A program made the translations under genes and the position numbers. The notes beneath the pieces are model-generated. The model did no database searches and was not told the DNA's origin. It was given only the letters and a program-made list of their open reading frames with translations. Below are positions 5,428-24,072 of a stretch of 38,411 bases of DNA, in pieces. The stretch covers positions 1-38,411 of the forward strand of contig NZ_AXWW01000065.1 of the NCBI RefSeq assembly GCF_000482865.1. The letters run 5' to 3'. The stretch comes from Actinokineospora inagensis DSM 44258 (GTDB lineage: Bacteria > Actinomycetota > Actinomycetes > Mycobacteriales > Pseudonocardiaceae). How positions within the stretch are numbered: position 1 is the first letter of the stretch; every line of letters starts with the position of its first letter.

Positions 5428-5794
5428 GGTTTCATTGTCCCCGCAATCGAAGTGCGGATGATCGGGGAAATGCCGACGAGGTTGCCTTTTTCGCGAAAAG
5501 CGTGACCCACGCCTCAACTCGGAACCACTGGCGGTTTCCGGACGGCCCAAGTGGACTGTGCATCGGACCGCGCTGATGACCACCCGGATGACCTTGCGGA
5601 TAACGCCGGTGAACGCCCGGGTTCCTCGGCGGTCGAACTCCACGTGTATTGCCGGGGATTTACCGCGGGGGCCCTGGCAGCAAGGTGTCAGCGGCGTTCA
5701 CAGCGTGACAGCTTGTGGCAATACGCGGGTGTGCGGACTCTTCCGGCACTTAGGCTCGGGCCATCCACTCCACACCGGACATTGGAGATCCTTC
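5428..5794 (+). promoter_or_regulatory. 367-bp leader/promoter region of the main polyketide operon
   Basis: No gene is supported here; the in-frame extension upstream of ACP1 translates to unconserved sequence. TAGGCT at 5751-5756 could be a -10, and the same hexamer occurs ahead of the acyl-CoA dehydrogenase at 24059-24064. TGGACTGTGCA at 5552-5562 is shared with the inter-regulator gap at 2621-2631. This is the only sizeable gap before a run of 20 genes, so the operon promoter should lie here; its exact position is uncertain. Confidence 0.45.
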
Positions 5795-6049
5795 GTGCCC
5801 ACGATCACCGAAGAGCGCACGGTACAGATCAAGGACATCGTGTGCGACATCCTTGAGCTCGAGCCGGAGGAGGTCACCCCGACCTCTCTGTTCAAAGAGG
5901 ACCACGACGCGGACTCGTTGCGCGCCATCGAGATCCTGGCCTCGCTGGAGAAGGCGTTCAACATCACCATCGACCAGAGCGAGCTGCCCCGGATGGTGAA
6001 CCTCGAGGGCGTCTACACCGTGGTCGCCGAGAGCGCCAACTGGAACTGA
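5795..6049 (+). CDS. Acyl carrier protein 1
   Basis: An 84-aa acyl carrier protein that would hold the growing acyl chain as a thioester on phosphopantetheine. The modification site is Ser41 in DADSLRAIEIL, within an acidic four-helix ACP. The frame is open upstream to 5558, but GTG 5795 is chosen because GGAG lies 7 bases before it and the protein then has normal ACP length. It is the first gene of the long operon, one base ahead of the first ketosynthase, the usual carrier-before-KS order of dissociated synthases. The Asp-Ser-Leu motif is intact, so it should be functional once modified by a phosphopantetheinyl transferase, which is not encoded in the window. Confidence 0.93.
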   Translation: MPTITEERTVQIKDIVCDILELEPEEVTPTSLFKEDHDADSLRAIEILASLEKAFNITIDQSELPRMVNLEGVYTVVAESANWN

Positions 6050-6050
6050 C

Positions 6051-7277
6051 ATGACCCAGGCAGCCAATCGGGTAGTCATCACCGGCCTGGGCGTCGTGTC
6101 CAGCATGGGGCTGGGTGTGGACGAGTTCCGCGCGGGCCTGCGGGCAGGCCGGGACACCGCCCGGCCCATCACCGCGTTTTCCACGGTCGGGTTCGACCAC
6201 GCCAATGGTTGCGAGATCACGGGCTTCGAGCCCGCGGCCTGGATCACCGAGCTGGTCCCGGCTGAACTCGGCCGGGCCAGCCAGTTCGCCGTGGCCGCGG
6301 CGCGGATGGCGATCGACGACGCCGCGCTGTCCGTGCCGCGGCTGCGCGACGCCCGGTCCCTGGTGACCATCGGCACCACCGACGGCGAGTCGCGCGACCT
6401 CGACGGACTGGTCGAGGTCGAGGTCGGGCAGGGCCCGGCGGCGATGGACCCGGTCGCGGCCCGGCGGGTGCCCGCCGGTCGGCTCGCCGCCGCCATCGCC
6501 CGCGAGTTCGCCCTCACCGACACCGAGGCGGTCACCATCCCGACCGCGTGCTCCGCGGGCAACTACGCCATCGGCTACGGTTACGACGCGGTGCGCTCCG
6601 GCGAGGTCGACTTCGCCCTCGTGGGTGGCGCGGACGCGTTGTGCCGCAAGACTTTCACCGGCTTCTACCGGCTGGGCACGATCGCGCCGCAGCGGTGCCA
6701 GCCGTTCGACGTCGACCGCAAGGGCATCCTCACCGGCGAGGGCGCCGGCGTGCTGCTGCTGGAGAGCGAGCAGTCCGCCAAGGCCCGCGGCGCGCGGATC
6801 TACGCCGAGGTGCTCGGCTACGGCCTGTCCTGCGACGCCGACCACCCGGTCGCGCCGAACCAGGCCGGTGTGGCCCGGTGCATGCGGCTCGCGCTGGAGA
6901 ACGCCGGTGTCAAGCCGGACGAGGTGGACTTCATCTCCGCGCACGGCACCGGCACCAAGGCCAACGACGTCACCGAGGCGGGCGCGATCCGCCAGGTGTT
7001 CGGCGACACGCCGCCGCGCACGGTGTCCATCAAGTCCATGATCGGCCACTCGATGGGCGCGGCGAGCGCGCTGGCCTCCATCGGCTGCGCGCTGGCGATC
7101 ACCGACGGGTTCATCCCGCCGACGATCAACCACAACCAGACCGACCCCGAGATCAACCTGGACTGCGTGCCCAACCACGCGGTCGAGGCGGAGCTCAACG
7201 TGGTGCAGAACAACGGCTTGGCCTTCGGCGGCAACAACGCCGTCACCGTCTACGGCCGCTACCGGGAGGCGTCGTGA
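6051..7277 (+). CDS. Beta-ketoacyl-ACP synthase, FabF-like, catalytically intact (KS1)
   Basis: A 408-aa elongating ketosynthase that would condense malonyl-ACP with an acyl chain. All active-site residues are visible: Cys167 in TACSAG, His298 in SAHGTGT, Lys328 and His333 in SIKSMIGHSMGAAS. Length matches FabF. It starts one base after ACP1 with no strong ribosome-binding site, so translational coupling is likely, and it overlaps the next ketosynthase by four bases (GTGA). It is one of three intact KS enzymes in the operon. Which degenerate KS-like partner it pairs with, if any, cannot be told from sequence; it may act as a homodimer. Family assignment is secure. Confidence 0.95.
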   Translation: MTQAANRVVITGLGVVSSMGLGVDEFRAGLRAGRDTARPITAFSTVGFDHANGCEITGFEPAAWITELVPAELGRASQFAVAAARMAIDDAALSVPRLRDARSLVTIGTTDGESRDLDGLVEVEVGQGPAAMDPVAARRVPAGRLAAAIAREFALTDTEAVTIPTACSAGNYAIGYGYDAVRSGEVDFALVGGADALCRKTFTGFYRLGTIAPQRCQPFDVDRKGILTGEGAGVLLLESEQSAKARGARIYAEVLGYGLSCDADHPVAPNQAGVARCMRLALENAGVKPDEVDFISAHGTGTKANDVTEAGAIRQVFGDTPPRTVSIKSMIGHSMGAASALASIGCALAITDGFIPPTINHNQTDPEINLDCVPNHAVEAELNVVQNNGLAFGGNNAVTVYGRYREAS

Positions 7278-8440
7278 GCTGGTACGTGACCGGCACCGGT
7301 GCCGTGTGCAGCGTCGGCCGCGGCACGGACGCGGTGTGGGAGGCGTTGTGCGCGGGCACTTCCGGCCTGTCGCCGCTGCGTTCGTTCGACCAGGACAAGT
7401 TCCGGGTCACCCACGCCTACGAGATCGACGACCGCGAGGGCGCCGAGGACACGCCCGCTCGGGCGACCGCCTGGCTGATCGATGCCATCGCGGAAGCCCT
7501 GTCGGACGCGGGTCTGGACGAGGACCTGTCCGGCACCCCCGTGCTCGTCGGCACCGGCCTGCGCGAGCTGCGCTCGGTGGAACTGTGGTGGGACAAGAAC
7601 AAGGGCGCGGACAAGGACGGTACAGCGCAGCCCGGTGACCTGGACCGGCTGCACTTCGGCACCGCGCTGCGCGAGCGGTTCGGCGCCACCAACACCTACA
7701 CGTTCTCCAACGCCTGCTCCGCGTCGCTCTACGCGCTGGCGCTGGCCACCGACCTGCTGGCGGTCGGCGAGGCGGAAACCGTGGTGGTGGCCGGGGTCGA
7801 CGGGATCACCACCAGCATGCACGGCCTGCTCGACCGGGTGCACCCCGAGCCGCCGGACGCGGTGCGGCCGTTCGACCGCGCCCGCAAGGGCGTGCTGATG
7901 GGCGAGGGCGCCGCCGCCGTCGTGCTGCGCAAGCAGGACGGGGTCGACCCGGCCACCGCCAAGGGCCTGCTGCGCGCGGTCGGCGTCTCCTGCGACGCGT
8001 TCCACGTGACCGCGCCGGACCCGGTCGGCATCGCCGCCTCGGTGCGGCAGGCGCACGCCAGGGCGGGCATCAAGCCCGAGGACGTCGACCTGGTGATGCT
8101 GCACGGCACCGGCACGCTGCTCAACGACGAGGCCGAGGCCGCCGCGGTGGCCGAGGTGTTCGGCGAGCACGCGGGCGGCCCGGTGATGACCGCGGTCAAG
8201 TCGATGACCGGCCACACCTCCGGCGGCTCCGGCCTGCTCGGCCTGGTGCTGGCCACCCGGGCGCTGACCGAGGGCCGGGTGCCGCCGACCGTGGGTCTGG
8301 TGCAACCGGTCACCGAGGCCGCCGAGTTCCGGTTCGCCCGCCCCGGCGACGGCCCGGCCGACCTGTCGGTCGCCCAGGTCGACGCGTTCGGCTTCGGCGG
8401 CGTCAACGCCGTCGCCGTGATCGAGAGGACGACAGCGTGA
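7274..8440 (+). CDS. Beta-ketoacyl synthase, catalytically intact (KS2)
   Basis: A 388-aa ketosynthase with a complete triad: Cys148 in SNACSASLYAL, His277 in LHGTGTLLND, Lys309 and His314 in AVKSMTGHTSGGSG. It is more divergent from FabF than KS1. GTG 7274 overlaps the KS1 stop in GTGA, and the gene overlaps the degenerate KS-like gene downstream the same way, so KS1, KS2 and the KS-like protein form a translationally coupled trio. In type II systems such adjacency often marks a KS/chain-length-factor heterodimer, so pairing of KS2 with the 8437-9354 product is the simplest inference. The step or chain length it serves is unknown. Confidence 0.93.
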   Translation: MSWYVTGTGAVCSVGRGTDAVWEALCAGTSGLSPLRSFDQDKFRVTHAYEIDDREGAEDTPARATAWLIDAIAEALSDAGLDEDLSGTPVLVGTGLRELRSVELWWDKNKGADKDGTAQPGDLDRLHFGTALRERFGATNTYTFSNACSASLYALALATDLLAVGEAETVVVAGVDGITTSMHGLLDRVHPEPPDAVRPFDRARKGVLMGEGAAAVVLRKQDGVDPATAKGLLRAVGVSCDAFHVTAPDPVGIAASVRQAHARAGIKPEDVDLVMLHGTGTLLNDEAEAAAVAEVFGEHAGGPVMTAVKSMTGHTSGGSGLLGLVLATRALTEGRVPPTVGLVQPVTEAAEFRFARPGDGPADLSVAQVDAFGFGGVNAVAVIERTTA

Positions 8441-9354
8441 CCGGGGTGATCGGGGTCGGCGTCGCGCTGCCCGGCGTGACCGACCTGGCGGACATCGGCG
8501 GCGGTACCTTCGACCGCTCCGCGAAGGTCGACCCGGCCGCGCGGATCGGTCGCAAGGGCTTGCGCTACAAGGACCGGGCGACCCAGCTCGGCCTGGTCGC
8601 CGCGCACGACGCGCTGGTCGACGCGGGACTGTGGGTGGACGGCGCGCTGACCGTGCCCGGCGAGTCCGTCGCCGTGCTGGCCAGTTCCAACCTCGGCAAC
8701 CTGGACACGGTCTGCGAGGTGTCGGCCACCATCGCCGCCGAGGGCGTGGTCAGCACCAGCCCGATGGCGCTGCCCAACGCCTCCAGCAATGTGGTGGCCT
8801 CCACCACCGCGATCCGGTTCGGTCTCAAGGGCGCGAACCTGATGGTGTGCAACGGCGCAACGTCCGGCTTGGACGCGGTGCACTGGGCGGCGACCATGCT
8901 CAACGCGGGCCGCGCCGAGTACGCCGTGGTGATCGGCGTCGAGGTGGCCAACGAGGTGACCGAGCGCTTCACCGGCAGCACCGATCTTCTCGACGGCGCC
9001 GCCGCGATCGTGCTCCAGGCGGGCGCGCACGGGGTGCCGCTCGGCCGGTTCACCCGGTCCGGTGCACTGTCCGATGTGGTCAGTGGTACCGACGGCGCCT
9101 GGTTCGTGCCGGAGGGCTTCACCGGCGAGGCGCCGATCCCGGGCCTGGCCAACGCGACCCGGCACGACCTGGCCGAGTCCTTCGGCCGGTGCGGCGGCGC
9201 CCTCGGCGTGCTGCAGTGCGCCGCGGCGACGGTGCTGCTGCGGGCGGGCGCGACCGAACCGGTCGTGGTCAGCAACGACGGCCACGAGGCCGCCGCCGGA
9301 CTGGCCCTGCTGCCCACGGGGGGCAGCGCACAACCGGAGGGCAACGGGAGATGA
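8437..9354 (+). CDS. Degenerate ketosynthase-like protein (KSL-A)
   Basis: A 305-aa thiolase-fold protein, about 100 residues shorter than a true KS. The segment VCNGATSGLDAV (about 137-148) aligns with the KS nucleophile elbow but has Ala141 where the Cys should be. No HGTGT or GH(T/S) histidine motif follows. It can therefore not catalyse standard condensation. A basic motif IGRKGLRYKDRATQ (37-50) recurs in two other KS-like proteins of the operon (12266-13150 and 16023-17048), defining a related set. It resembles chain-length-factor-like or KS N-terminal-domain proteins of reducing type II and aryl polyene systems. Probable role: non-catalytic partner of KS2, coupled by the GTGA overlap. 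The role is inference. Confidence 0.8.
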   Translation: MTGVIGVGVALPGVTDLADIGGGTFDRSAKVDPAARIGRKGLRYKDRATQLGLVAAHDALVDAGLWVDGALTVPGESVAVLASSNLGNLDTVCEVSATIAAEGVVSTSPMALPNASSNVVASTTAIRFGLKGANLMVCNGATSGLDAVHWAATMLNAGRAEYAVVIGVEVANEVTERFTGSTDLLDGAAAIVLQAGAHGVPLGRFTRSGALSDVVSGTDGAWFVPEGFTGEAPIPGLANATRHDLAESFGRCGGALGVLQCAAATVLLRAGATEPVVVSNDGHEAAAGLALLPTGGSAQPEGNGR

Positions 9355-10151
9355 CCGACCAGACCGCTCCGATCACCGTCAACCTGGTGCGCCCCGCGCG
9401 CGGATCGGCCGACCCGGTCCGGGTGCTGCTGATGCACGGTTTGGCCAGCAGCGGCGCGGTCTGGGACGCCTTCCTCCCGTTGGCGGCCGACGCCTGCGAA
9501 CTGTGGGCGGCCGAGCTGCCGTGGCGGGTGGAGGGTGTGCCGGGGTGGGCCGAGCGCACCGACGTCGGTGCCTGGGCGGCCGAGGCACTGGCCATGGTTC
9601 CCGGTGGGGTGGACGTGGTGGTGGCGCATTCCTTCGGCGCCAACACCCTGCTCGCCCACCTCGCTCACACGGACGACCTGCCCGGCGCGGTCGTCCTGGT
9701 GTCCCCCTTCTACCGACCGTCGACGGCCGACTTCGACTGGCGGGCCATCGACTACTACCTCAACGACTTCCACCTGATCCTGGCCGACGGCATCCGGGTC
9801 CGCGCGGGCGGACGGCTGACGCCGGACCGGCAGGAGGCCATGGCGGTCAAGGTCCGCGACCGGGTCGGACCGTACGGGTGGGTGCGCTTCTTCGACACCT
9901 ACCTGCGCACACCGCGCCTGCCGCTGGACGGCGTGACCGCGCCGTGCCTGGTCGTCGCCGGGGAGACGGACTTCGCCGCCTTCCCCGCTGACGCCATCGC
10001 GTTGACCGGGGCGCTGCCCGACGCCCGCGTGCACGTCGTGTCCGGCTGCGGCCACTTCGCCATGGCCGAGCGGGCGGGCGAGTTCGCCGCCCTGGTCAAC
10101 CAGTTCCTCAGCGACTTCCTCCGCAACCGAGCATGGGAGCCCCTTAAGTGA
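9351..10151 (+). CDS. Alpha/beta hydrolase (possible thioesterase or cyclase)
   Basis: A 266-aa alpha/beta hydrolase. MHGLASSG gives the oxyanion region, VAHSFGANTL (nucleophile Ser) is a G-to-A variant of GxSxG, GETDFAAF provides the acid, and GCGHFAMAE the catalytic His. ATG 9351 overlaps the previous stop (ATGA). Its place between KS genes and the tandem-hotdog gene suggests it acts on an ACP-bound or released acyl chain: editing thioesterase, release enzyme or cyclase. It is about the size of type II thioesterases, though it lacks features that would prove that role. Family secure, substrate unknown. Confidence 0.82.
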   Translation: MTDQTAPITVNLVRPARGSADPVRVLLMHGLASSGAVWDAFLPLAADACELWAAELPWRVEGVPGWAERTDVGAWAAEALAMVPGGVDVVVAHSFGANTLLAHLAHTDDLPGAVVLVSPFYRPSTADFDWRAIDYYLNDFHLILADGIRVRAGGRLTPDRQEAMAVKVRDRVGPYGWVRFFDTYLRTPRLPLDGVTAPCLVVAGETDFAAFPADAIALTGALPDARVHVVSGCGHFAMAERAGEFAALVNQFLSDFLRNRAWEPLK

Positions 10152-11074
10152 GCACCGACCTGCAGACCGCGCTCAAGGCGCTGCTGACGACCACCACCAC
10201 GGTGTCGCTGCGGCCGCGCTACGAGGGCAACAACATCAACACCTGGATCGGCTTCAAGCACGTCAACTACCTGGTCGAAGAGGCCGTGCTGGAGCACTTC
10301 CGGGCGGCCGGGCTGCCGACGCGGGAGCTGTTCGAGTCCTACGGCCTCGGCCTGGAGATCTCCACGATCGACACCCGCATCCTCAACGCGTTCCACCTCG
10401 ACGAGGTCGGCACCGCCACCGTCACCCCGAGCAGTGAGTCCGAGCTGGCGTTCCGCGTGGTGATCACCAAGGAGGGCAAGTCCGGCAAGGACGTCACCTC
10501 CAAGGTCAAGGTCACCCTGCGCCGCGAGACCTATGTCGCCCCGGCGAACGTGGTCCCCGCCGAGCTGGCCCCGTTCTCGGTCGACCGCATCGGCGGCACC
10601 GAGACCGGCGCGGACGCCGAGGACGACGTGCTGGCGCAGCTCACCCGCGACCAGAACGCCTACGGCTGGAAGTGGCGGATCCCCTACCCGTACTGCCACA
10701 ACAACGAGCGCCTGCAGATGTCGGGCTACCTGCGGCTGATGGAGGAGGTCGTCGAGCTGTTCCTCGCCGACCGCGGCATCTCCATCAAGACCCTGCTCGA
10801 CGAGCGCAAGTGGATCCCGGTCGTGCCGCACTCGAAGATCACCCAGGTCGACGAGGCGTGGATGGAGGAGGACCTCTACACGATCTACACCGTCGAGGAG
10901 GTCTTCAAGGACGTCACCTACACCTCGCGGATGGACACCTACGTGGTGCGCGACGGCAAGCTCGTGCTCACCTCGACCGGCACCATCACCCACGGCTACG
11001 CGATCTTCCACGACCGCAGGGACTGGAGCCTGGTCAACTTCGACGAGCGCGTGCTCAAGGCTCTGCGGGGCTGA
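10148..11074 (+). CDS. Tandem (double) hotdog thioesterase-like protein
   Basis: A 308-aa protein that reads as two hotdog units. Unit 1 (about 20-130) has the long helix signature GFKHVNYLVEEAVLEHF; unit 2 (about 175-290) has NERLQMSGYLRLMEEVVELF followed by WIPVVPHSKI, like acyl-ACP or 4-hydroxybenzoyl-CoA thioesterases. Neither unit shows the usual Asp-x-x-x-His-x-N catalytic signature in standard form; unit 2 carries CHNN at 183-186. It may hydrolyse an acyl-ACP thioester or work as a dehydratase or isomerase, since all use this fold. GTG 10148 overlaps the hydrolase stop in GTGA. The fold is fairly secure, activity inferred. Confidence 0.7.
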   Translation: MSTDLQTALKALLTTTTTVSLRPRYEGNNINTWIGFKHVNYLVEEAVLEHFRAAGLPTRELFESYGLGLEISTIDTRILNAFHLDEVGTATVTPSSESELAFRVVITKEGKSGKDVTSKVKVTLRRETYVAPANVVPAELAPFSVDRIGGTETGADAEDDVLAQLTRDQNAYGWKWRIPYPYCHNNERLQMSGYLRLMEEVVELFLADRGISIKTLLDERKWIPVVPHSKITQVDEAWMEEDLYTIYTVEEVFKDVTYTSRMDTYVVRDGKLVLTSTGTITHGYAIFHDRRDWSLVNFDERVLKALRG

Positions 11075-11081
11075 GCGGACC

Positions 11082-12269
11082 ATGACCGTGCTCATCACCG
11101 GACTGGGCGTGCTGTCCTGCCTGGGCGCCGGGACCGACAAGTTCTGGGCGGGCATGCGCGCCGCGCGCAGCGCCCCCGGCCGGGCCGCTGACCCGCACGC
11201 GAACATGGCGCACCCGCTGATGTACTCGGTGCCCGCGGCCGACGTGCCCTCCGGTCCCGCCGCGCTGGGCGGGTCGCCGCTGGGCCAGGCCTCGCGTTAC
11301 GCGCTGGCGGCCGCCGCCGAGGCGGTGGCCGACGCGGGCCTGGGTCAGGTCGCGGACCCGACCCGGGTCGCGGTGGTGGTGGGCACCGGCATGGGTGACT
11401 CCGGGATGCACGAGCAGTGGCATCTCGACGGCGCCCCGGAGGGTGAGTGGTCCCCGGTGTTCTCCCCGGCCGCTTCCATCGGCGGCTGGTTCGGGGCCGC
11501 CGGGTCCAACACCAGCATCAGCAACGCCTGCGCGGCGAGCGGGTTCGGGCTCTCGGTGGCCGCCGACCTGATCAACTCCGGCGAGGCCGACGTGGTCATC
11601 GCCGGTGGCGCCGAGGCCTACTCCCGGGTCGCGCTGGGCTGCTTCAACCGGCTCGGCGCGATCGACGCCGAGCGGTGCAGGCCGTTCGACCGCCACCGCG
11701 GCGGCACGGTGTTCGGCGAGGGCGCCGCGATCATGGTGCTGGAGTCCGCCGAGCACGCCGCCGCCCGCGGTGCCACGGCGTACGCCGCGCTGGCCGGTGC
11801 GGGCTGGAGTTGCGACGCCTACCACTCGACCGCCCCGGAGCCGACCGGCGAGCAGATCGTCCGGGCCATGTACCAGGCGTTCGACGACGCCGGTGTCAAG
11901 CCGGCCGACATCGGCGCGGTCGTCCCGCACGGCACCGGCACCCAGCTCAACGACGTCGTGGAGAGCGGTTCGCTGGCCCAGGTGCTGGGCGGGGCGGGCC
12001 TCTCGATGGCACAGGTGCCGCTGTACAGCCTCAAGGGTCTGATCGGGCACACCGGCGGCGCGGCGGGTGCGCTGGCCGCGCTCGCAGGCGCGCTCATCGT
12101 GTCGAACCGCGAGGTCCCGCCGAGCGTCGCGCTGGGCGAGCAGGACCCGGAGTGCCCGGTGCTGCTGCCCACCCAGGCCGTCCCGCTGGAGGGCTCGGCC
12201 GTGCTGGTCAACGCCTACGCCTTCGGCGGCAACAACGTGTCCCTCGTGCTGCAGGAGGTCGAGTCGTGA
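11082..12269 (+). CDS. Beta-ketoacyl synthase, catalytically intact (KS3)
   Basis: A 395-aa ketosynthase with the whole triad: Cys150 in SNACAASGFG, His283 in VPHGTGTQLND, Lys318 and His323 in SLKGLIGHTGGAAG. It starts 7 bases after the hotdog gene with only a weak ribosome-binding site, and overlaps the next, degenerate KS-like gene by GTGA. The pair layout mirrors KS2/KSL-A, implying a second KS/partner heterodimer. Three intact condensing enzymes in one operon are more than one iterative chain builder needs, so separate priming, early or late elongation roles are plausible. Family secure, the division of labour is inference. Confidence 0.94.
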   Translation: MTVLITGLGVLSCLGAGTDKFWAGMRAARSAPGRAADPHANMAHPLMYSVPAADVPSGPAALGGSPLGQASRYALAAAAEAVADAGLGQVADPTRVAVVVGTGMGDSGMHEQWHLDGAPEGEWSPVFSPAASIGGWFGAAGSNTSISNACAASGFGLSVAADLINSGEADVVIAGGAEAYSRVALGCFNRLGAIDAERCRPFDRHRGGTVFGEGAAIMVLESAEHAAARGATAYAALAGAGWSCDAYHSTAPEPTGEQIVRAMYQAFDDAGVKPADIGAVVPHGTGTQLNDVVESGSLAQVLGGAGLSMAQVPLYSLKGLIGHTGGAAGALAALAGALIVSNREVPPSVALGEQDPECPVLLPTQAVPLEGSAVLVNAYAFGGNNVSLVLQEVES

Positions 12270-13150
12270 CCGTGGACCTCGTGGTGACCGGTGTCGGCGT
12301 GGTCGACCCGGCCGCGGGCTTCGACTACAAGGTCGAACTCGGCAAGCGCGGCTACAAGTACCTGCCGTCCGCGTCGCAGTACCTTCTCGCCGCCACCAAG
12401 CGGGCCGTCGCCGACGCCGGTGACGCGCTCGCGACGGTGCCGGAGGAGTCCCGCGCGGCGGCCGTCGGCACCAACTGCGCGGCGTCCGCGCTGCACGCGC
12501 AGATGGACCGCACGGTCATCGACGCCGACGCCAACGACCTGAGCCCGGCCACCGCGCCGTACTTCTCGATCAACCTGTTCGGCAGCCGCCTGGCCACCGA
12601 GCACGCGCTCAAGGGCTTCAACCTGACCGTCACCAGCCCGCGGGTCGCCGGACTGGAGGCGGTGCAGGCCGGTGGCCGCTCGATCGCGCTGGGCCGGGCG
12701 GGCTGGCTGGTCGCCGGTGCCGCCGAGGAGGCGCTGGACCCGGCCGAGCCGGGCGCCGACACCGCCGAGACCGGCGCGGTCGCCATCGTCTTCGAACCGG
12801 CCGCCGCCGTCGCCGCGCGTGGTGGCCGGGTGCTCGGCCGCTGCGTGGTGCGCACCGCGTTCCTCGCGCCGACCGGGCTCACGCCCGACTTGGTCGCTGG
12901 CGTCATCGGCCCGGTTCGGGCGTGGGCCGGGGACGTCCCGGTGCGCGCCGTCGTCGACTCGTCCCCGGTGGGCGAGGCGCTGGCCGCCGCGTTCGGCCCG
13001 GACACCACCGTGGTGCGGGCCGGTGCGGGCTGCCTGCGGCCGATGGCCGAGGTCGCCGCCGTGCTCGCCGCCGGTGAGCGGGCCCTGGTGGTCACCGCCG
13101 CCGCCCAAGGAAACGTCGCGTTCGCGCTCGTCACCCCCGGAGGGAACTGA
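12266..13150 (+). CDS. Degenerate ketosynthase-like protein (KSL-B)
   Basis: A 294-aa short thiolase-fold protein. The nucleophile position is Arg126 (TSPRVAGLEAV, 123-133), and the C-terminal histidine motifs are absent, so normal condensation is impossible. It carries the same basic motif as KSL-A in altered form: LGKRGYKYLPSASQ (25-38). It starts at GTG 12266 inside the stop of KS3, which strongly suggests coupled expression and a complex with KS3, in the manner of a chain-length factor. The fold assignment comes from the KSL motif and the alignable elbow rather than strong overall similarity, so confidence is moderate. Confidence 0.75.
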   Translation: MTVDLVVTGVGVVDPAAGFDYKVELGKRGYKYLPSASQYLLAATKRAVADAGDALATVPEESRAAAVGTNCAASALHAQMDRTVIDADANDLSPATAPYFSINLFGSRLATEHALKGFNLTVTSPRVAGLEAVQAGGRSIALGRAGWLVAGAAEEALDPAEPGADTAETGAVAIVFEPAAAVAARGGRVLGRCVVRTAFLAPTGLTPDLVAGVIGPVRAWAGDVPVRAVVDSSPVGEALAAAFGPDTTVVRAGAGCLRPMAEVAAVLAAGERALVVTAAAQGNVAFALVTPGGN

Positions 13151-13944
13151 TGCTCACCTCGCTGCAGGGCACCTGGTGCCTGATCCTCGGCGCGTCCAGC
13201 GGCATGGGCGAGGCCACCGCGCGCGCCTGGGCGCAGGCGGGTGGCAACGTCCTCGGCGTCCACTTCGACACCGCCGAACGGCAGGAGAAGGTGACCGTGC
13301 TCCAGGAGGAGTTGCGGTCGAAGGGCGTGCAGGCGCACTTCTTCAACTACAACGCCGCCAGCGCGGACACCCGCAACGAACTGGTGCCGCGGTTCGCCGA
13401 ACTCGTTGGTGCCGCGGGCATCCGGGTGCTCATGCACTCGCTCGCCTTCGGCAGCCTGGTGCCGTTCATCGCCGAGGACAAGCGCAAGGCGTTCACCTCG
13501 AAGCAGATGGACATGACGCTCAACGTCATGGCGCACAGCCTCGTCTACTGGACGCAGGACGTGCACCGCGCCGGTCTGCTCAAACGCGGCTCGAAGATCT
13601 TCGCGATGACCAGCGCGGGCGACGAGAAGGTCTCCCCGAACTACGGCGGCGTCTCGGCGGCCAAGTGCGCGCTGGAATCGCACATCCGCCAGTTGGCGCT
13701 GGAACTGGCGCCCGCGGGCATCTCGGCGAACTCGCTGCGCGCCGGTGTCACGGTGACCCCGTCGCTGGAGCGCATTCCCGAGCACAAGCAGCTCATCGAG
13801 CTGGCCACCCGGACCAACCCGCACGGCCGCCTCACCCAGTGCGACGACGTCGCCGACACGATCGTCCTGCTGGCGAGCACCGACTCGTCCTGGATCACCG
13901 GCAACATCATCGGCGTCGACGGCGGCGAAGCGCTCACCGCCTAG
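13150..13944 (+). CDS. Enoyl-ACP reductase, FabI/FabL-like SDR
   Basis: A 264-aa short-chain dehydrogenase-type enoyl reductase. The cofactor loop is LGASSGMGEA (14-23). The catalytic pair is Tyr165 and Lys172, spaced Y-x6-K as in FabI and FabL rather than the Y-x3-K of ketoreductases. It would reduce trans-2-enoyl-ACP to the saturated acyl-ACP. Its stop-start overlap with KSL-B is one base (TGATG). The presence of an ER means that at least some cycles can be fully reducing, which separates this locus from purely polyene-making type II clusters. A housekeeping copy should exist elsewhere, so this gene might also double as resistance to a FabI inhibitor. Confidence 0.85.
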   Translation: MLTSLQGTWCLILGASSGMGEATARAWAQAGGNVLGVHFDTAERQEKVTVLQEELRSKGVQAHFFNYNAASADTRNELVPRFAELVGAAGIRVLMHSLAFGSLVPFIAEDKRKAFTSKQMDMTLNVMAHSLVYWTQDVHRAGLLKRGSKIFAMTSAGDEKVSPNYGGVSAAKCALESHIRQLALELAPAGISANSLRAGVTVTPSLERIPEHKQLIELATRTNPHGRLTQCDDVADTIVLLASTDSSWITGNIIGVDGGEALTA

Positions 13945-13989
13945 CCGGTTTTCGGGCAGCAGTCTCTTCAGGACAGACAGGGGAAGCAC

Positions 13990-14925
13990 GTGACCGACAC
14001 CGCGGAGATCGCCGCCGCGCCGCGCGGGGGGACGCTGCCCGCCACCGTCCGCGCGTGGCTGGCGGCGCTGCGGCTCGCGGCCCAGGACGCTTACGGCGTC
14101 TACCACCCGCCCACGGCGAAACCCGGTCGCACTCCGGAGCAGAAGGGGTTGACCAGCGAGCCCGTGCACGTGGTCACCTCACGGGACAGGGTTCGGCTGG
14201 ACGGCTGGTTCGTGCCCGGCGACGGTCCGCACACGGTCGTCGTCTGCCACGGCATGGGGCGCACCAAGTCCGCGGTGCTCGACCACATCAAGCTGCTCAA
14301 CGGCGCCGGCTACCACGTGCTCGCGTACGACCTGCGCAACCACGGTGCCAGCGGGCGTGACGGCAAGGTCACGGCCATGGCGAAGCGGTTCACCAGCGAC
14401 CTGCGCGATGTGCTCCGGTTCGTGGCCGCCGACCCGCGCACCAAGGGCGGCAAGATCGCCGTGCTGGCGTTCTCCTTCTCCACCTGGCCCGCGATCTACG
14501 CGTTGAAGGCGGGCGGCCCCCGGGTCGCCGCGGTGATCTGCGACAGCGGACCGATGTACGACATCCCCGGTGGTTTCCGGCACTTCAGCGCGCTGCGCTG
14601 GGGGACGCTACCCGCCGAGGCGACCAGGCCGGGCGCACAGGCGTTGTACCGCAAGGTTTTCACGCTGATCGGCACCCGCATGCTGGCCGTGCGCGGCTGG
14701 CCGCCCGCGCTGCCCACCACGGTGACCCGGATGCTGTTCATCGGCGGGGCCAAGGACCAGGTCGTGCCCGCCGCCCAGGTGATGCGGGTGGCCGCCGAGT
14801 ACCCCGACGCGCAGCGGTGGGTGGCGCCCGGGGCCCAGCACATGAACGGCGTCCGCCTCGATCGCGAGGAGTACCGCGAGCGCGTCACCGCTTTCCTCGC
14901 CGAAGCCTGTGGAGGGACTGCGTGA
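13990..14925 (+). CDS. Alpha/beta hydrolase, atypical nucleophile elbow
   Basis: A 311-aa alpha/beta hydrolase of the family 'extended' type. VVVCHGMGRTKS (about 77-88) is the oxyanion region, LAFSFSTWPAI the elbow, GAKDQVVPA carries the acid and GAQHMNG the His. The elbow reads FSFST rather than GxSxG, with the glycines replaced, so activity may be altered. An N-terminal stretch of about 50 residues precedes the domain. GTG 13990 has AGGGGA 5-8 bases upstream. The GTGA overlap with the sulfur-relay gene downstream ties it to that trio. It could act on an acyl or sulfur-containing intermediate; this is inference only. Confidence 0.75.
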   Translation: MTDTAEIAAAPRGGTLPATVRAWLAALRLAAQDAYGVYHPPTAKPGRTPEQKGLTSEPVHVVTSRDRVRLDGWFVPGDGPHTVVVCHGMGRTKSAVLDHIKLLNGAGYHVLAYDLRNHGASGRDGKVTAMAKRFTSDLRDVLRFVAADPRTKGGKIAVLAFSFSTWPAIYALKAGGPRVAAVICDSGPMYDIPGGFRHFSALRWGTLPAEATRPGAQALYRKVFTLIGTRMLAVRGWPPALPTTVTRMLFIGGAKDQVVPAAQVMRVAAEYPDAQRWVAPGAQHMNGVRLDREEYRERVTAFLAEACGGTA

Positions 14926-15248
14926 GCGCGCACCTGTTGATCGAGACCCACGGCCCGTGGGCAGGCCCCGCCTGCTCCCGCTTCCTGGCCGACGCCACCG
15001 AGTTCCTCTCCGCCGGTGACAAGGTCTGCGTGTTCCTCTTGCAGGACGGCGTGACCGCTGCCGTCGGCAAGCCGTTGCCCGAGGTGGGTGTGTTGTTGGC
15101 GGCGGGCGCCCAGGTCTGGGCCGACCGGTTCTCGTTGGAGCAGCGGGCTTTGCAGTCCGCGCCCAGAGTTGACGGCGTGCGACTGGTCACTGTGGACGAA
15201 GTGGCCCAGTTGCTGCTCGACCCGGATGTGCGGGCGGTGTGGCACTGA
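14922..15248 (+). CDS. DsrH/TusB-like sulfur-relay protein
   Basis: A 108-aa protein resembling DsrH/TusB, the small subunit of the DsrEFH/TusBCD heterohexamer that passes persulfide sulfur. The core VCVFLLQDGVTAAV matches the family's strand followed by Q-D-G-V, and the C-terminus LVTVDEVAQLL...VRAVW matches the terminal helix ending in Trp. GTG 14922 overlaps the hydrolase stop; its own stop overlaps the next gene by one base. It is followed directly by DsrE-like and DsrF-like genes, completing a three-subunit set. The family call rests on the order and on these short motifs. Confidence 0.7.
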   Translation: MSAHLLIETHGPWAGPACSRFLADATEFLSAGDKVCVFLLQDGVTAAVGKPLPEVGVLLAAGAQVWADRFSLEQRALQSAPRVDGVRLVTVDEVAQLLLDPDVRAVWH

Positions 15249-15652
15249 TGGCACGCGTCCCGGAAGCTGACCTGCTGCTGGCGATCATGGGCGCCCCGCA
15301 CGCCTCGGACATGGTGGCGTCCGCGCTGCGCGTCGCCGAGGCCGTTGTCGGACAAGGCGGCCGGGTCCAGGTGTGGACCTGCGGGTACGCGACCATGCTG
15401 ACCCAGTCTTCGCTCGGCGACACCAAACCGCGCAACGTGGTCGACTGGTCCCGCGACTACCCGTCCACCGCGAAGACGATCGGCGACCTGCTCGGCCGCT
15501 GCGGCGGCGGGCTGACCTGGTACACCTGCCGGTTCTGCGGTGAGGAACGCGGGGTCACCACGCACATCCCCGAGGTGAAGGTGCGCCCGCCGTTCAAGTT
15601 CGGCGAACACGTCGCCGCCGCGGGCAAGACGCTGTTCCTGGGGGTGATCTGA
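15248..15652 (+). CDS. DsrE/TusD-like sulfur-relay protein with CxxC
   Basis: A 134-aa DsrE-fold protein. The N-terminal ADLLLAIMGAPHASDMVASA fits the TusD/DsrE opening (nucleotide-like fold with GAP-x-x-S). In TusD a single Cys precedes a conserved helix and carries persulfide; here the matching region, GLTWYTCRFCGEERGV (89-104), has a CxxC pair at Cys94 and Cys97, plus Cys85 and Cys45. ATG 15248 lies in TGATG, giving a start 9 bases downstream of an alternative GTG. It should be the sulfur-carrying subunit. The doubled Cys is unusual and might bind metal or form a disulfide instead. Confidence 0.72.
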   Translation: MARVPEADLLLAIMGAPHASDMVASALRVAEAVVGQGGRVQVWTCGYATMLTQSSLGDTKPRNVVDWSRDYPSTAKTIGDLLGRCGGGLTWYTCRFCGEERGVTTHIPEVKVRPPFKFGEHVAAAGKTLFLGVI

Positions 15653-16009
15653 GTGCGGTACCTGGCGATCGTGGAACGCGGCTACCGGGGCTCGGTGGAG
15701 ACCCAGTTCGCCGACGTGCTGTACCTGGTCCGCGAGCTGAACCGCCAGCTCGACGGGCTCGACCTGAGCCTGCGCGGGCTCGCGGTGACCTACGCGGTGA
15801 CCGCCGACCCGGTGCCGCCGGTGGTCGGGCTGGACACCCTGCCCGACCCGCGGGCGTCCCTGCGGACCCTGCTCGACGAGGGCGTCACCGTCACCGTCAC
15901 CGACGACGACCTGGCGGCCGCTGGCCTGCCCGGCGACGTCCAACTGCTTCCCGGCGTGGTTCGTGGCGCCGCCCGCTGGACCGACTACCGAGCCGTCTGG
16001 TTCCTCTGA
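15653..16009 (+). CDS. DsrF/TusC-like sulfur-relay protein
   Basis: A 118-aa protein starting directly after the DsrE-like stop (TGA-GTG). It opens RYLAIVERGYRGSVETQFAD, matches the length of DsrF/TusC and ends ...YRAVWFL, comparable to the family's terminal strand. A region V-T-V-T-D-D-D-L-A-A-A-G-L resembles the 'auxiliary' helix of TusC. It has no cysteine, as expected for a structural subunit. Together with the two preceding genes it gives a DsrH-E-F arrangement. Alone the similarity would be weak; the context raises confidence. Confidence 0.6.
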   Translation: MRYLAIVERGYRGSVETQFADVLYLVRELNRQLDGLDLSLRGLAVTYAVTADPVPPVVGLDTLPDPRASLRTLLDEGVTVTVTDDDLAAAGLPGDVQLLPGVVRGAARWTDYRAVWFL

Positions 16010-16022
16010 AGGAGAGTCTCAG

Positions 16023-17048
16023 GTGAGCACCACCCGTTACCCCGTCATCGCCGCCTGGTCCGCGGTCTCCCCGCTGGGCATGGGCGCCGCCGCGTTCACC
16101 GAGGGCCTGCGCGCGGGCGAGGTCGCCTCGTCCACTGTGGACGAGAGCTGGGCCGCCCCGGTCGAGCGGGCCTGCCTGGTGCCGGGCTTCGACATCAAGG
16201 CCATCCTGGGCCGCAAGGGCACCCGGTCGATGGACCGGGCGACCGGCCTCGCGGTCACCGCCGTCGGCCAGTTGCTCGACGGCGCACAGGGCGACGAGCG
16301 GACGGCGCTGGTCCTGGGCACCAGCACCGGCAGCGCCCAGTCCATCATGGACTTCACCAGGGACTCGCTGACCGGCGCCCGGCCGCACCTGGTCGACCCG
16401 GCCCGGTTCCCCAACACGGTGATGAACTGCGCGGCGGGCCAGTGCGCGATCTGGCACAAGCTGCAGGGCCCGAACACCACGATCGCCGCGGGCCGCGCGT
16501 CCGGCCTGCTCGCCCTGCGCTACGCGCTCCGGTTGCAGCGCAACAAGCACGCGGACCCGGTGTTGGTCGGCGCCGTGGAGGAGTTCTCCCATGCCCGCGC
16601 CTGGCTGGAGCAGCGCGCCCGCGGCCAGGTCGGCCTGCTCGGTGAGGGCTGCGCGGTGCTGCGGGTCGAGCCCAGCGGTGACGGCCTGGCCGAGGTGTTG
16701 AGCCTGGAAACCGCCATGTACCACGAGTCCGCGGGTATCCGCCCGGTGGTCAAGGCCCTGGTCGAGCGGGTCCTGCGCAGCGCGGAGATCACCCCGGCCG
16801 ATGTCGCGCTGGTGTCCGAGTCCGGTTTGGATGGTGAGCTGGCCGGGGTGCGGGACGTGCTGCCGGAGGCCGAGGCCGTTGTGTGCGCCGACCTGATCGG
16901 TGAGACCTCCGCGGCGTCGGCGGCGTTCCAGACCACCGCCGTCCTCGCCACCGCGGAGGGCCGGTCCGAGCTGTCCGGCAAGTCCGCCCTGATCACCTCG
17001 GTCGACCACGACGGTGTGGTCGCCGCCGCCGTCCTGCGCCTGCGCTGA
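16023..17048 (+). CDS. Degenerate ketosynthase-like protein (KSL-C)
   Basis: A 341-aa KS-fold protein. The motif LGRKGTRSMDRATGL (62-76) matches KSL-A and KSL-B. At the elbow, IAAGRASGLLAL (154-165) places Arg158 at the Cys position. HGTGT is replaced by VSESGLDGE and the K-x-x-x-GH site by DLIGETSAAS, so Glu replaces His. Condensing activity should be lost. GTG 16023 is supported by AAGGAGAG 6-7 bases upstream; the frame extends to 15963 but lacks support. Unlike the other two KSL genes it has no adjacent active KS, so it could pair with KS1 or serve another complex. It precedes the carboxylase genes by 29 bases. Confidence 0.82.
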   Translation: MSTTRYPVIAAWSAVSPLGMGAAAFTEGLRAGEVASSTVDESWAAPVERACLVPGFDIKAILGRKGTRSMDRATGLAVTAVGQLLDGAQGDERTALVLGTSTGSAQSIMDFTRDSLTGARPHLVDPARFPNTVMNCAAGQCAIWHKLQGPNTTIAAGRASGLLALRYALRLQRNKHADPVLVGAVEEFSHARAWLEQRARGQVGLLGEGCAVLRVEPSGDGLAEVLSLETAMYHESAGIRPVVKALVERVLRSAEITPADVALVSESGLDGELAGVRDVLPEAEAVVCADLIGETSAASAAFQTTAVLATAEGRSELSGKSALITSVDHDGVVAAAVLRLR

Positions 17049-17077: not shown

Positions 17078-18808
17078 GTGACCATCGAACTCGCTGAGCG
17101 TGGCCGGGCCGTCCTGACGCGCATCGCGGCCCTGCCCGACGACGCCTGGGTGTCCTGCCGGGGCTGCCGGGCCGTGGTGCACGGCAGCAAGCTCCGGCGC
17201 GCGGACAACGTCTGCCCCGAGTGCGGCCACCACGGCAGGCTCGGCGCCCGTGAGCGCGTCGGTCAACTCGCCGACCCGGGGTCGTTCGAGGAGCACCACG
17301 CGGACGCCACCGGGGGAGACCCGCTGGAGTTCACCGACAAGCTCGCCTACCCCGACCGGCTTGCCAAGGCCCGCAAGGGAACCGGCCTGACCGAGGCCGC
17401 AGTCGTCGGCACCGCGACCATGGGTGGCAAGCCGGTCGTGCTGGCGGTGCTGGACTTCGCGTTCCTCGGCGGCAGCATGGGTTCGGTGGTCGGCGCGAAG
17501 ATCACCTACGCCGCCGAGTTGGCCGGGTCACTGCGGGTTCCGCTGATCGCGGTCTCCTCGTCGGGTGGCGCGCGGATGCAGGAAGGCATCCTGTCGCTGC
17601 TGCAGATGGCCAAGACGTCCGCCGCCATCGGCCGGATGCGGCGGGCGGGCGTGCCGTTCGTCAGCGTGCTGGCCGACCCGGTGTACGGCGGTGTGTCCGC
17701 GAGTTTCGCCGCGCTGGGCGACATCATCATCGCCGAGACCGGGACCAGGGCGGGTTTCGCCGGTCGGCAGGTCATTGAGCAGATCATCCGCCAGGCGCTG
17801 CCGAAGCGCTTCCAGACCGCGGAGTTCCTGCACGAGCACGGCCACCTGGACCTGGTGCTCAACCGGTCCGAGCTGTTCCTGGTGCTGCGCGACATCGTCG
17901 CCTGCCACGCCGCCGCCGGTACCAAGCCCGCGGAGGCGGTCCCTGCGGTCGCGGTTCAGAGCGAGGAGGCCGACGTGTGGGACGTGGTCAAGCTGGCCCG
18001 CCACCCCGGTCGCCCCAACGCCTTGGGCTACATCGAGCGCGTGTTCACCCGGTTCGTCCCGCTGCACGGCGACCGCTGGTCCGGTGACGACGAGGCCATC
18101 GTCGGCGGTCTGGCCTGGCTGGACGAGAGCCCGGTGGTCGTCATCGGCCACTGCAAGGGCCGGGACACCCCGGAGAACGTGCGCCGCAACTTCGGTATGC
18201 CGCACCCGCACGGCTACCGCAAGGCCATGCGGCTGATGACCCTCGCCGAACGCTTCGGTGTCCCCGTTGTGACCCTTGTGGACACTCCGGGCGCGTACCC
18301 CGGCATGAAGGCGGAAGAGGACAACCAGAGCGGCGCGATCGCGGAGGCGCTTGTGCTCTCGGCGGGCCTGCGGGTTCCGGTCGTCACCGTGGTCACCGGT
18401 GAGGGTGGCAGCGGCGGCGCGCTGGCCCTGGCCACTGGCGACCGGCTGCTGATGCAGCAGAACACCGTGTACTCGGTGATCAGCCCCGAGGGCTGCGCCA
18501 CCATCCTGTTCGGCGACGCGGGCAAGGCACCCGACGCCGCCCGCGCGTTGCGGATGAGCGCCCCGCAGGTGCGCGGGCTCGGGATCGCCGACGAGTTGAT
18601 CCCGGAGCCCGAGGGCGGCGCGCACACCGACCCCGCCGCCGCGGCTGCCGCCATCGCCGACGCCCTGCGCCGTGCTCTGCGCGAGCTGCACGGCACCGCG
18701 CCGGACGCGCTGGTGGCCGCCCGCTACCGCCGCCTGCACGGGTACGGCTCGGTCACCCTGCCCAGCCCCACCGGCCACCACCCGATCGAGGAGAACGCCC
18801 ATGTCTGA
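17078..18808 (+). CDS. accDA: Acetyl-CoA carboxylase carboxyltransferase, fused AccD-AccA
   Basis: A 576-aa fusion of the beta (AccD, about 1-285) and alpha (AccA, about 290-560) subunits of carboxyltransferase, which moves the carboxyl group from carboxybiotin to acetyl-CoA to make malonyl-CoA. The AccD zinc finger has Cys27, Cys30, Cys46 and Cys49. SSSGGARMQEG and GEGGSGGALA are carboxyltransferase signature segments, and LVDTPGAYPG marks AccA. Actinobacterial primary metabolism normally uses AccD-type acyl-CoA carboxylases, so a bacterial-style AccDA fusion inside this operon is likely a dedicated malonyl-CoA supply. GTG 17078 has a near-perfect AAAGGAGGT 5 bases upstream, the strongest ribosome-binding site in the operon. 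It overlaps accB by 8 bases. Confidence 0.95.
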   Translation: MTIELAERGRAVLTRIAALPDDAWVSCRGCRAVVHGSKLRRADNVCPECGHHGRLGARERVGQLADPGSFEEHHADATGGDPLEFTDKLAYPDRLAKARKGTGLTEAAVVGTATMGGKPVVLAVLDFAFLGGSMGSVVGAKITYAAELAGSLRVPLIAVSSSGGARMQEGILSLLQMAKTSAAIGRMRRAGVPFVSVLADPVYGGVSASFAALGDIIIAETGTRAGFAGRQVIEQIIRQALPKRFQTAEFLHEHGHLDLVLNRSELFLVLRDIVACHAAAGTKPAEAVPAVAVQSEEADVWDVVKLARHPGRPNALGYIERVFTRFVPLHGDRWSGDDEAIVGGLAWLDESPVVVIGHCKGRDTPENVRRNFGMPHPHGYRKAMRLMTLAERFGVPVVTLVDTPGAYPGMKAEEDNQSGAIAEALVLSAGLRVPVVTVVTGEGGSGGALALATGDRLLMQQNTVYSVISPEGCATILFGDAGKAPDAARALRMSAPQVRGLGIADELIPEPEGGAHTDPAAAAAAIADALRRALRELHGTAPDALVAARYRRLHGYGSVTLPSPTGHHPIEENAHV

Positions 18809-19289
18809 GCAGACCCTTGCCGACTCCGTCGAGCGGGCCTTCGCCGAGCGGTCCCAGGTCGACCTCGGGACCCTGGTGGCGCAGGTGCGCGAGCTGGTCC
18901 GGCTGGTGGACACCACCTCGGTCAACCGCATCCGGCTCGAGTCCGGCTCGTTCCGGGTCGAGATCGAGGCCGACCAGCCGGTGATCACCGCTGTTGCCGG
19001 TGCTCAGGTCGCCGTTGCGCCGGTTGCCGCAGAGACCCCGGCTCCGGCGGGCATCGAGGTCAAGGCGTTGCTGGTCGGTGTGTTCTACCGCTGCCCGGCC
19101 CCCGGTGAGGCGCCGTTCGTCGAGGTGGGCGACCGGGTCGAGGCCGGGCAGCAGTTGGGCATCGTCGAGGCGATGAAGATGATGAACCCGGTCGTGGCCG
19201 ACCGCGCGGGTGTCATCGCCGCCGTCCCGGCCACCGACGGCGAGGTCGTCGAGTTCGACCAGCCGCTGTTCGTGATCGGGGCGAGCTGA
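18801..19289 (+). CDS. accB: Biotin carboxyl carrier protein AccB
   Basis: A 162-aa biotin carboxyl carrier. The biotinylation motif EAMKMMNPV holds Lys126, in a C-terminal biotinyl domain (about 85-162). The N-terminal helical segment (1-60) and an Ala/Pro-rich linker (about 62-84) are typical of AccB. ATG 18801 overlaps the accDA reading frame by 8 bases. It would be biotinylated by a host ligase, not encoded here, and work with AccC and the carboxyltransferase on either side. Confidence 0.95.
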   Translation: MSEQTLADSVERAFAERSQVDLGTLVAQVRELVRLVDTTSVNRIRLESGSFRVEIEADQPVITAVAGAQVAVAPVAAETPAPAGIEVKALLVGVFYRCPAPGEAPFVEVGDRVEAGQQLGIVEAMKMMNPVVADRAGVIAAVPATDGEVVEFDQPLFVIGAS

Positions 19290-19290
19290 C

Positions 19291-20649
<1,359 letters not shown>

Positions 20650-20674
20650 TAACCGACAACAAGAGGAGTTCGAA

Positions 20675-20923
20675 ATGGCTTCCGCCACCCTGGACCTGGA
20701 AGACCTGCGCGCCACCGTCGCCGACGTGCTCGACGTCGACGTCCCCGAGGTCACCGACGAGGTCGACTTCATCGAGGACCTCGGCGTCGACTCGCTGATG
20801 GCGCTGGAGGTCATGGTCGTGCTGGAGAAGAAGTACAGCGTGAAGATCGCGGAGAACGAGCTGCGCGAGGTCACCAACCTGAAGAAGGCCTACGACCTGC
20901 TGACCGCGAAGCTGGCCGCCTGA
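20675..20923 (+). CDS. Acyl carrier protein 2
   Basis: An 82-aa acyl carrier protein. Ser40 in DLGVDSLMALEVM is the phosphopantetheine site, and the sequence is strongly acidic with the usual helix pattern. ATG 20675 has AGAGGAG 6-7 bases upstream. It overlaps the first dehydratase by one base (TGATG). It is more canonical than ACP1 and sits next to the dehydratases and ketoreductase, suggesting it is the main elongation carrier while ACP1 might serve priming or another KS. That split is inference. Confidence 0.95.
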   Translation: MASATLDLEDLRATVADVLDVDVPEVTDEVDFIEDLGVDSLMALEVMVVLEKKYSVKIAENELREVTNLKKAYDLLTAKLAA

Positions 20924-21315
20924 TGGCAGGCGTGGCGGCCAGTCCGGTCACCGCCGCGGTGACCGTCCTGGACCACGGCGACCGGCACGCCGTCACGGAG
21001 GTCGTGGTGGACCCGGGGCAGCAGGTCTTCCCCGGGCACTACCCCGGCTTCCCGATCTTCCCCGGGGTCTGCGTCGTGGAGTGCGTGAACCTCGGTGCCC
21101 AGGCCGCGCCGCCGGTGGCCGGTCCGCCGCTGGGCCTGGTGGCCGTCGAGTCCACCCGGTTCCAGAGCCCGGTCTTCCCCGGCGACACGGTCAAGTCGGA
21201 GTTCGACTGGGTCGCCGACGGCGCGGACTGGCTGTGCAAGGCGCAGGTGCACACCGCGCGCGGTCGGGCCGCCCAGGTCCGGCTGCGCTACCGGCCGGTC
21301 GAGACGGGAGCCTGA
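20923..21315 (+). CDS. FabZ/FabA-like hotdog dehydratase, active-site intact (DH-A)
   Basis: A 130-aa single-hotdog dehydratase that would remove water from 3-hydroxyacyl-ACP. The signature GHYPGFPIFPGVCVVE (38-53) supplies His39 and Glu53, matching the catalytic His and acid of the family. It starts in the ACP2 stop (TGATG) and is followed after two bases by a second, His-less FabZ-like gene. In aryl polyene systems two different hotdog dehydratase proteins form a heterodimer in which each gives part of the site; the same is likely here. Confidence 0.87.
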   Translation: MAGVAASPVTAAVTVLDHGDRHAVTEVVVDPGQQVFPGHYPGFPIFPGVCVVECVNLGAQAAPPVAGPPLGLVAVESTRFQSPVFPGDTVKSEFDWVADGADWLCKAQVHTARGRAAQVRLRYRPVETGA

Positions 21316-21317
21316 TC

Positions 21318-21809: not shown

Positions 21810-21942
21810 GTCCCGCTCGCGCCCGCACCGCGCGGGCCGGGCGGGCTCACCCGCGCACATCCACAGTGGACTCATATGGACCGTGTGGTCGGCGGGTCCA
21901 CGTCGGAAACCCAGTCTGAGTACGGAAACGAGGAGGGACATC
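21810..21942 (+). promoter_or_regulatory. 133-bp gap between DH-B and ketoreductase
   Basis: Holds the palindrome TCCACAGTGGA at 21860-21870, an element that recurs in several intergenic sites of the window, and GC-rich inverted sequence at about 21825-21850 without a T-tract. It is the first break in the main operon and may carry a secondary promoter for the ketoreductase set. Evidence is weak. Confidence 0.3.
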
Positions 21943-23953: not shown

Positions 23954-24024
23954 CCGGGGTTCGACCCGCTGGTAGTGCGTCGACGAATGGTGGTGGAACG
24001 GGCCGGGACGGCTTGTCAGCTACC

Positions 24025-24064: not shown

Positions 24065-24072
24065 GGGGAGTC

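Follow-up and report, generated by a model that had tools for sequence, protein, structure and literature searches.

We analysed a window of 38,411 nucleotides from Actinokineospora inagensis DSM 44258 (contig NZ_AXWW01000065.1; all genes with coordinates in the core operon lie on the + strand), and identified a locus that is very probably a highly reducing (polyene/cinnamoyl-lipid) type II polyketide synthase (PKS) with three pairs of ketosynthase (KS) and chain-length factor (CLF). Three intact KSs (KS1, KS2 and KS3) and three shorter KS-fold proteins (KSL-A, KSL-B and KSL-C) are encoded between positions 6051 and 17048, and the predicted heterodimers KS1/KSL-C, whose genes are 8.7 kb apart, KS2/KSL-A and KS3/KSL-B are well supported by homology. 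The KS/CLF layout is a published kind of assembly line, matching the gla (globisporamic acid) genes of Streptomyces globisporus C-1027 gene for gene as far as checked.

Catalytic residues and relatedness of the six proteins

All six open reading frames (ORFs) were present where an initial annotation of this DNA had placed them, and alignment of the products bore out its residue assignments. We found complete Cys-His-Lys-His sets in KS1 (6051..7277), KS2 (7274..8440) and KS3 (11082..12269), with Ala at the Cys position in KSL-A (8437..9354) and Arg in both KSL-B (12266..13150) and KSL-C (16023..17048); none of the His, Lys and His residues of the set occur in the corresponding alignment columns of the three KSLs. 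The GTGA overlaps reported to join two intact/degenerate pairs were recovered at 8437 (KS2/KSL-A) and 12266 (KS3/KSL-B), and we additionally identified a GTGA junction, absent from that earlier list, at 7274 (KS1/KS2). The Pfam ketoacyl-synthase N-terminal domain scored above its cut-off in all six proteins, and the C-terminal domain was matched, among the six, by KS1, KS2 and KS3 only.

The nearest PDB matches of KS1 and KSL-C are chain A and chain B, respectively, of a single entry, 6KXD (E 5.9e-164 with 63% identity, and E 1.6e-63 with 46% identity), which we take to be Iga11-Iga12 of ishigamide synthesis. 6KXD is described as a typical KS-CLF complex (PMC10698177), and Iga11 is named as a polyene type II KS (PMC6510318). 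Chain B, like KSL-C, carries Arg at the Cys column, and the structure differs from our locus in holding a single KS-CLF pair. Profiles of the other two short proteins aligned with chain B nearly from end to end (positions 17-302 of 307 for KSL-B, 31-310 of 315 for KSL-A), whereas for the other PDB chains listed the best stretch ended by position 176 for KSL-B (223 for 6smo_C) and by 175 for KSL-A.

The initial annotation had proposed a phylogeny of all six proteins, and a tree of 95 sequences, drawn from 16 hand-picked loci (window included) and three PDB references, separated all KSs and 6KXD chain A from all KSLs and chain B (support 0.97 and 1.0). Each of the six families formed one clade, counting the 6KXD chains with KS1 (0.998) and KSL-C (0.997), and KSL-A and KSL-B were sister families (0.946). 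From the profile matches and the grouping with chain B, all three KSLs look like CLF partners of the 6KXD chain B lineage.

Predicted pairing of KSs with CLF partners

KS2/KSL-A and KS3/KSL-B are predicted to pair because their genes are adjacent. KS1 and KSL-C, which the initial annotation had left unpaired, most likely constitute the third pair, because they are related to the two chains of one solved pair and because their genes adjoin in three related loci (L024, L038 and L039), in which KS3 and KSL-B also stay together. We additionally assessed co-variation by correlating distance matrices from 29 loci (window included), and in the full partial correlation the best KSL for each KS was the predicted partner (KS1/KSL-C 0.433, KS2/KSL-A 0.316, KS3/KSL-B 0.335). 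The earlier suggestion that up to three KS/partner complexes share chain building gains support from homology, with KS2/KSL-A and KS3/KSL-B remaining predicted pairs.

Conservation across related loci

We identified related loci by scanning genome contigs with a KSL-B profile, which gave 60 pattern matches, 40 of them encoding a relative. Because the loci were selected through KSL-B and extend no more than 10 kb to either side of it, the shares given here are not population frequencies. All six KS-fold genes were found in 30 of the 40 loci (31/41 with the window), and gene order and strand were kept in 30 of the 31 six-gene loci (29 among the fetched ones), indicating that the layout is not due to chance. 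The sole exception to the order is L024 (Streptomyces palmae), in which KS1 adjoins KSL-C. The hosts include Streptomyces, Saccharothrix, Streptosporangium and Actinomadura, the closest locus being that of Saccharothrix algeriensis (L003; KSL-B 82%, KS1 94%), followed by that of Streptosporangium pseudovulgare (L004).

The ten incomplete loci are of several kinds. Three (L005, L032 and L040) are either short or truncated close to the match; in L038 and L039 only two pairs are present and KS1 adjoins KSL-C; three contain KS3-KSL-B without the rest (L011, L020 and L033, the latter two with two copies); and L041 and L042 have KS3-KSL-B together with weak KS1-like matches.

The nucleophile column was likewise conserved within each family (window included). 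Cys occupies it in 35/36 rows of KS1 (one gap), 32/32 of KS2 and 40/41 of KS3 (one His). It was never Cys in KSL-A (21 Ala, 5 Pro, 2 Val, 2 Glu, 1 Gly and 1 X in 32 rows), KSL-B (39 Arg and 2 Gly in 41) or KSL-C (30 Arg, 3 Ala, 1 Thr and 1 Glu in 35). These rows are best ORFs chosen mechanically and taken without a row-by-row check, so that lone odd residues may come from fragments. The retention of a non-Cys column across loci indicates that the short proteins are conserved families and not decaying copies, and 25-member alignments of KSL-A and of KSL-B contain many invariant columns.

In 60 relatives of the host genome, with a first pass that scored at most 39 candidates per genome, we found no match to KSL-B as good as those in the related loci; weak matches (E<=0.001) were present in 24 of the 60, the best at 7.6e-9, with 22-40% identity over part of the length. 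Separately, relatives of KSL-C (at least 80% coverage, below 60% identity) were found on 30 Streptomyces plasmid records; plasmids thus carry CLF genes of this lineage as well.

Comparison with described multi-pair systems

The initial annotation had taken one KS/CLF heterodimer per pathway to be the norm and knew of no described system with this layout. Neither view holds for this class: cinnamoyl-lipid PKSs generally have two or three pairs, gla and ysf have three (PMC9381841), and mbg has four (PMC13311259).

The closest correspondence is with gla, in which the three KS-CLF pairs are GlaE-GlaQ, GlaF-GlaG and GlaJ-GlaK, GlaD and GlaR are acyl carrier proteins (ACPs), GlaS and GlaT are dehydratases (DHs), GlaU is a ketoreductase (KR) and GlaV is an isomerase (PMC9381841). 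Nineteen genes of the window, the first being the ACP at 5558 and the last the isomerase that ends at 23366, agree with GlaD-GlaV in their number and their order, and the 12 published functions agree too; KS1, KS2, KSL-A, KS3, KSL-B and KSL-C occupy the positions of GlaE, GlaF, GlaG, GlaJ, GlaK and GlaQ, respectively. The two systems thus share the interleaved order KS1, KS2, CLF2, KS3, CLF3, CLF1 as well as the ACP, two DHs, KR and isomerase. They differ in two respects: in the window an acetyl-CoA carboxylase set lies between CLF1 and ACP2, and no malonyl acyltransferase or phosphopantetheinyl transferase was found among the window genes scanned, whereas gla has GlaA and GlaB. This comparison was made through published gene letters and functions, with GlaH, GlaI and GlaL-GlaP matched by count. 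In two related loci, those of S. anulatus (L017) and S. californicus (L027), the order is ACP, KS1, KS2, KSL-A, hydrolase, hotdog protein, KS3, KSL-B, SDR, hydrolase, three small genes, KSL-C, ACP, DH, DH, KR and isomerase, a total of nineteen that equals the number of letters from D to V.

Three further systems were compared by description. The youssoufene cluster ysf (BGC0002547) has three KSs and three CLFs (PMC9381841, PMC13311259) acting in turn, and a glutathione-dependent isomerase, YsfG; GlaJ-GlaK is reported to be homologous to YsfJ-YsfK (PMC9381841). The ysf pairs bear neighbouring letters (B-C, D-E and J-K), unlike GlaE-GlaQ and KS1/KSL-C. In mbg (BGC0002441), four KS-CLF pairs have been validated, with pairing tested by experiment (PMC13311259); as in our locus there are several pairs and not all are neighbour-numbered (Mbg7-Mbg3), although the window has three. 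The same paper cautions that in complex prediction high scores may be reached by non-cognate pairs too. Finally, in the epoxinnamide cinnamoyl PKS, two KS/CLF complexes are proposed to act sequentially on a polyene (PMC9321520). This resembles the multiple complexes proposed here, but epoxinnamide has two pairs plus non-ribosomal peptide synthetase (NRPS) genes, and no NRPS condensation domain was found among the window genes scanned.

Assignment to the highly reducing type II PKSs draws on several features found in the locus: active KSs with four catalytic residues that are closest to a polyene-type KS; Cys-less CLFs homologous to 6KXD chain B; KR, DH and ACP genes in the same cluster; and three KS and three CLF-type genes, where the class has two or three pairs, the pairing here being predicted. 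The class also has a YsfG-type glutathione-dependent cis-trans isomerase, for which the DSBA-fold gene at the GlaV position is a candidate. We rejected an aromatic type II PKS of the actinorhodin kind, as KS1 and KSL-C matched 1tqy_A and 1tqy_B at E 2.5e-49 and 5e-5, against 5.9e-164 and 1.6e-63 for the 6KXD chains. Several discrete KSs are also found in the nonactin and pamamycin clusters, which make macrodiolides.

Alternative explanations

Several observations weigh against the assignments above. The co-variation test is weak: in the raw correlations KS1 was marginally nearer to KSL-A (0.917) than to KSL-C (0.913), the partial correlations of KSL-B/KSL-C (0.425) and KS1/KS2 (0.434) were as strong as those of the predicted pairs, and two of the three predicted pairs are gene neighbours anyway. 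These correlations, together with the sister relationship of KSL-A and KSL-B, might be expected if pairing were promiscuous, with the three KSLs swapping among the three KSs or one KSL serving two KSs. We consider this unlikely, as the full partial test returns the predicted partner as the best for all three KSs, KS1 adjoins KSL-C in three loci, and in mbg the non-cognate mixture Mbg7-Mbg5 failed to co-elute (PMC13311259). One pair could instead serve cyclisation or some other task than elongation, in the manner of AmcF-AmcG, the KS-CYF pair that acts in cispentacin synthesis and in which AmcG is a Cys-less KS-like protein that forms a heterodimer with AmcF (PMC10698177). KSL-A does match the AmcG model weakly, but its 32.6 bits are far under the cut-off of 80, and at E<=0.01 neither KSL-B nor KSL-C had an AmcG match listed; as all three ysf pairs are reported to act in chain extension (PMC9381841), we regard a non-elongating pair as very improbable, and rejected a cispentacin-type identity on these scores. 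That the short genes are decaying, functionless paralogues, as their missing catalytic residues and unmatched C-terminal KS domain might suggest, has a negligible probability given the conservation of each KSL across loci, with a non-Cys nucleophile column and, in KSL-A and KSL-B, many invariant positions.

Other reservations concern gla and the product. The gla match rests on published gene letters together with the S. anulatus and S. californicus loci, whose hosts we take to be near S. globisporus, and the gene lists of the loci display only matches to window genes, so that extra genes there would not appear. Furthermore, the six KS-fold genes occur without the trio of small genes (14817-16009) in four loci (L034, L035, L036 and L037), and ring closure by the trio is therefore not tied to the six-gene layout; the products of these four loci might stay acyclic polyenes. 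We nevertheless retain a polyene/cinnamoyl-lipid PKS with three cognate pairs as the reading of the locus.

Proposed order of action

The analysis itself establishes which genes are present, their residues, relatedness and order. By analogy with gla and ysf, we infer the heterodimers, their order of action, the benzene ring and the product, and we are less sure of the order than of the class and the pairs. KS1/KSL-C would start from malonyl- and acetyl-ACP and, with the KR and the two DHs, make a short trans polyene, into which the DsbA-fold isomerase would introduce one cis double bond. KS2/KSL-A would then extend the polyene, benzene ring closure probably following this extension, and KS3/KSL-B would lengthen the ring-bearing chain. 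The KSL proteins themselves would not catalyse condensation; their part would be to complete the tunnel and to determine how long the chain grows or which substrate is chosen. The products are probably long unsaturated fatty chains containing benzene. The earlier proposal that one complex handles priming has a published analogue in YsfB-YsfC, which starts the ysf chain (PMC9381841), and is extended to KS1/KSL-C by analogy.

Other genes of the operon

An ACP gene at the GlaD position (ACP1, 5558..6049; Pfam PP-binding 2.5e-10) lies immediately 5' of KS1 in most loci. The genes between the KS-fold genes, placed at gla positions by gene count, are an alpha/beta hydrolase (9348..10151, start approximate; GlaH; Abhydrolase_6 3.6e-15; 23/40 loci), a hotdog thioesterase-like protein (10148..11074; GlaI; 4HBT_2 3.7e-6; 35/40 loci), an SDR reductase (13150..13944; GlaL; adh_short_C2 2.7e-42; 37/40 loci) and a second alpha/beta hydrolase (13990..14925; GlaM; Hydrolase_4 3.3e-14; 27/40 loci). 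Highly reducing type II PKSs are marked by the lack of an enoyl reductase; FabL gave the best score for the SDR, 133.7, far below its cut-off of 328.

Three small genes follow, at the GlaN, GlaO and GlaP positions by gene count, each in 31/40 loci. The first (14817..15248, true start probably ~14922) is faintly DsrE/DsrH-like, with DsrE matched at E<=0.05 in 7 of 10 aligned family members (best 3.2e-4) and the window copy under the Pfam cut-off. The second (15239..15652) has three invariant Cys in 12 aligned members and no PDB match; DsrE was matched in 3 of the 12 (best 0.0011), the window copy not being among them. The third (15653..16009) has no Pfam match. A DsrE/DsrF identity for the trio thus did not reach cut-off in the window copies. 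The trio may be a candidate counterpart of the ring-closing set Kcn17-Kcn18-Kcn19 named in PMC9321520. We noted that the four loci L034 to L037, which have all six KS-fold genes, contain no match to the three small genes.

Between KSL-C and ACP2, inside the PKS operon, lie genes for an acetyl-CoA carboxylase carboxyltransferase (17078..18808; ACCA 6.2e-110), a biotin carboxyl carrier protein (18672..19289, start approximate; Biotin_lipoyl 1.3e-17) and a biotin carboxylase (19291..20649; CPSase_L_D2 1e-72). Malonyl-CoA probably comes from this set (17078-20649), which occupies the same place in 3/40 loci (L003, L004 and L037). The core operon is completed by ACP2 (20597..20923, start approximate; GlaR position; PP-binding 2.7e-13), two dehydratases at the GlaS/T positions (20923..21315, FabA-like 5.2e-6 and ApeI-like 2.5e-6, the latter slightly below its cut-off; and 21081..21809, FabA-like 5e-15, an ORF that overlaps the first, its true start probably ~21312), a ketoreductase (21883..22680; GlaU position; TIGR01830 3-oxoacyl-ACP reductase above cut-off) and the DsbA-fold protein, a predicted cis-trans isomerase (22677..23366, start assumed; GlaV position; DSBA 1.9e-17).

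Downstream genes and possible product

Directly after the isomerase, positions 23554-25848 encode a large protein of 764 aa that resembles acyl-CoA dehydrogenases. L011 contains a relative at 61%, and in L017, L022 and L027 matches follow the core genes. Further downstream (28453-38206) are genes for an acyl-AMP ligase, an AfsA-like hotdog protein, SDRs, a YCII protein, a pyridoxal phosphate (PLP) enzyme, which comes close to GntC in score while staying under the cut-off, and an AurF-like N-oxygenase. These may be tailoring genes or a separate cluster. In seven related genomes, neither the acyl ligase nor the AurF-like gene had a close match beside the cluster. For the ligase, all seven genomes gave family-level matches only, the best having E 8.6e-22 at 33%, with short stretches reaching 43%. 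The AurF-like gene had matches in 2/7, one of them strong (2.1e-51, 35%), at 2.15 Mb of contig 1 of genome G061, whereas that species has its cluster at about 1.42 Mb of its contig. Comparison of the AfsA-like and PLP genes covered the fetched loci, which frequently end short of this region.

The downstream genes may make the product new. A more specific proposal, which we regard as rather doubtful, is that the cluster makes a cinnamoyl lipid not described before. Its ring-bearing chain, similar to that of gla, would be built with the cluster's own acetyl-CoA carboxylase and then receive unusual nitrogen chemistry through the AurF-like N-oxygenase, the PLP enzyme and the acyl ligase, and the trio would close the benzene ring as a DsrE/F-like complex.

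Significance

The locus does not open a new enzyme class. The six-gene layout recurs as a conserved actinobacterial module and is not the curiosity of one genome, and a partner is proposed for KS1 and for KSL-C, the two genes that had been left unpaired. With about 30 natural triples, the specificity of pairing becomes testable, and for discovery the locus flags a cinnamoyl-lipid cluster that probably brings its own supply of malonyl-CoA.

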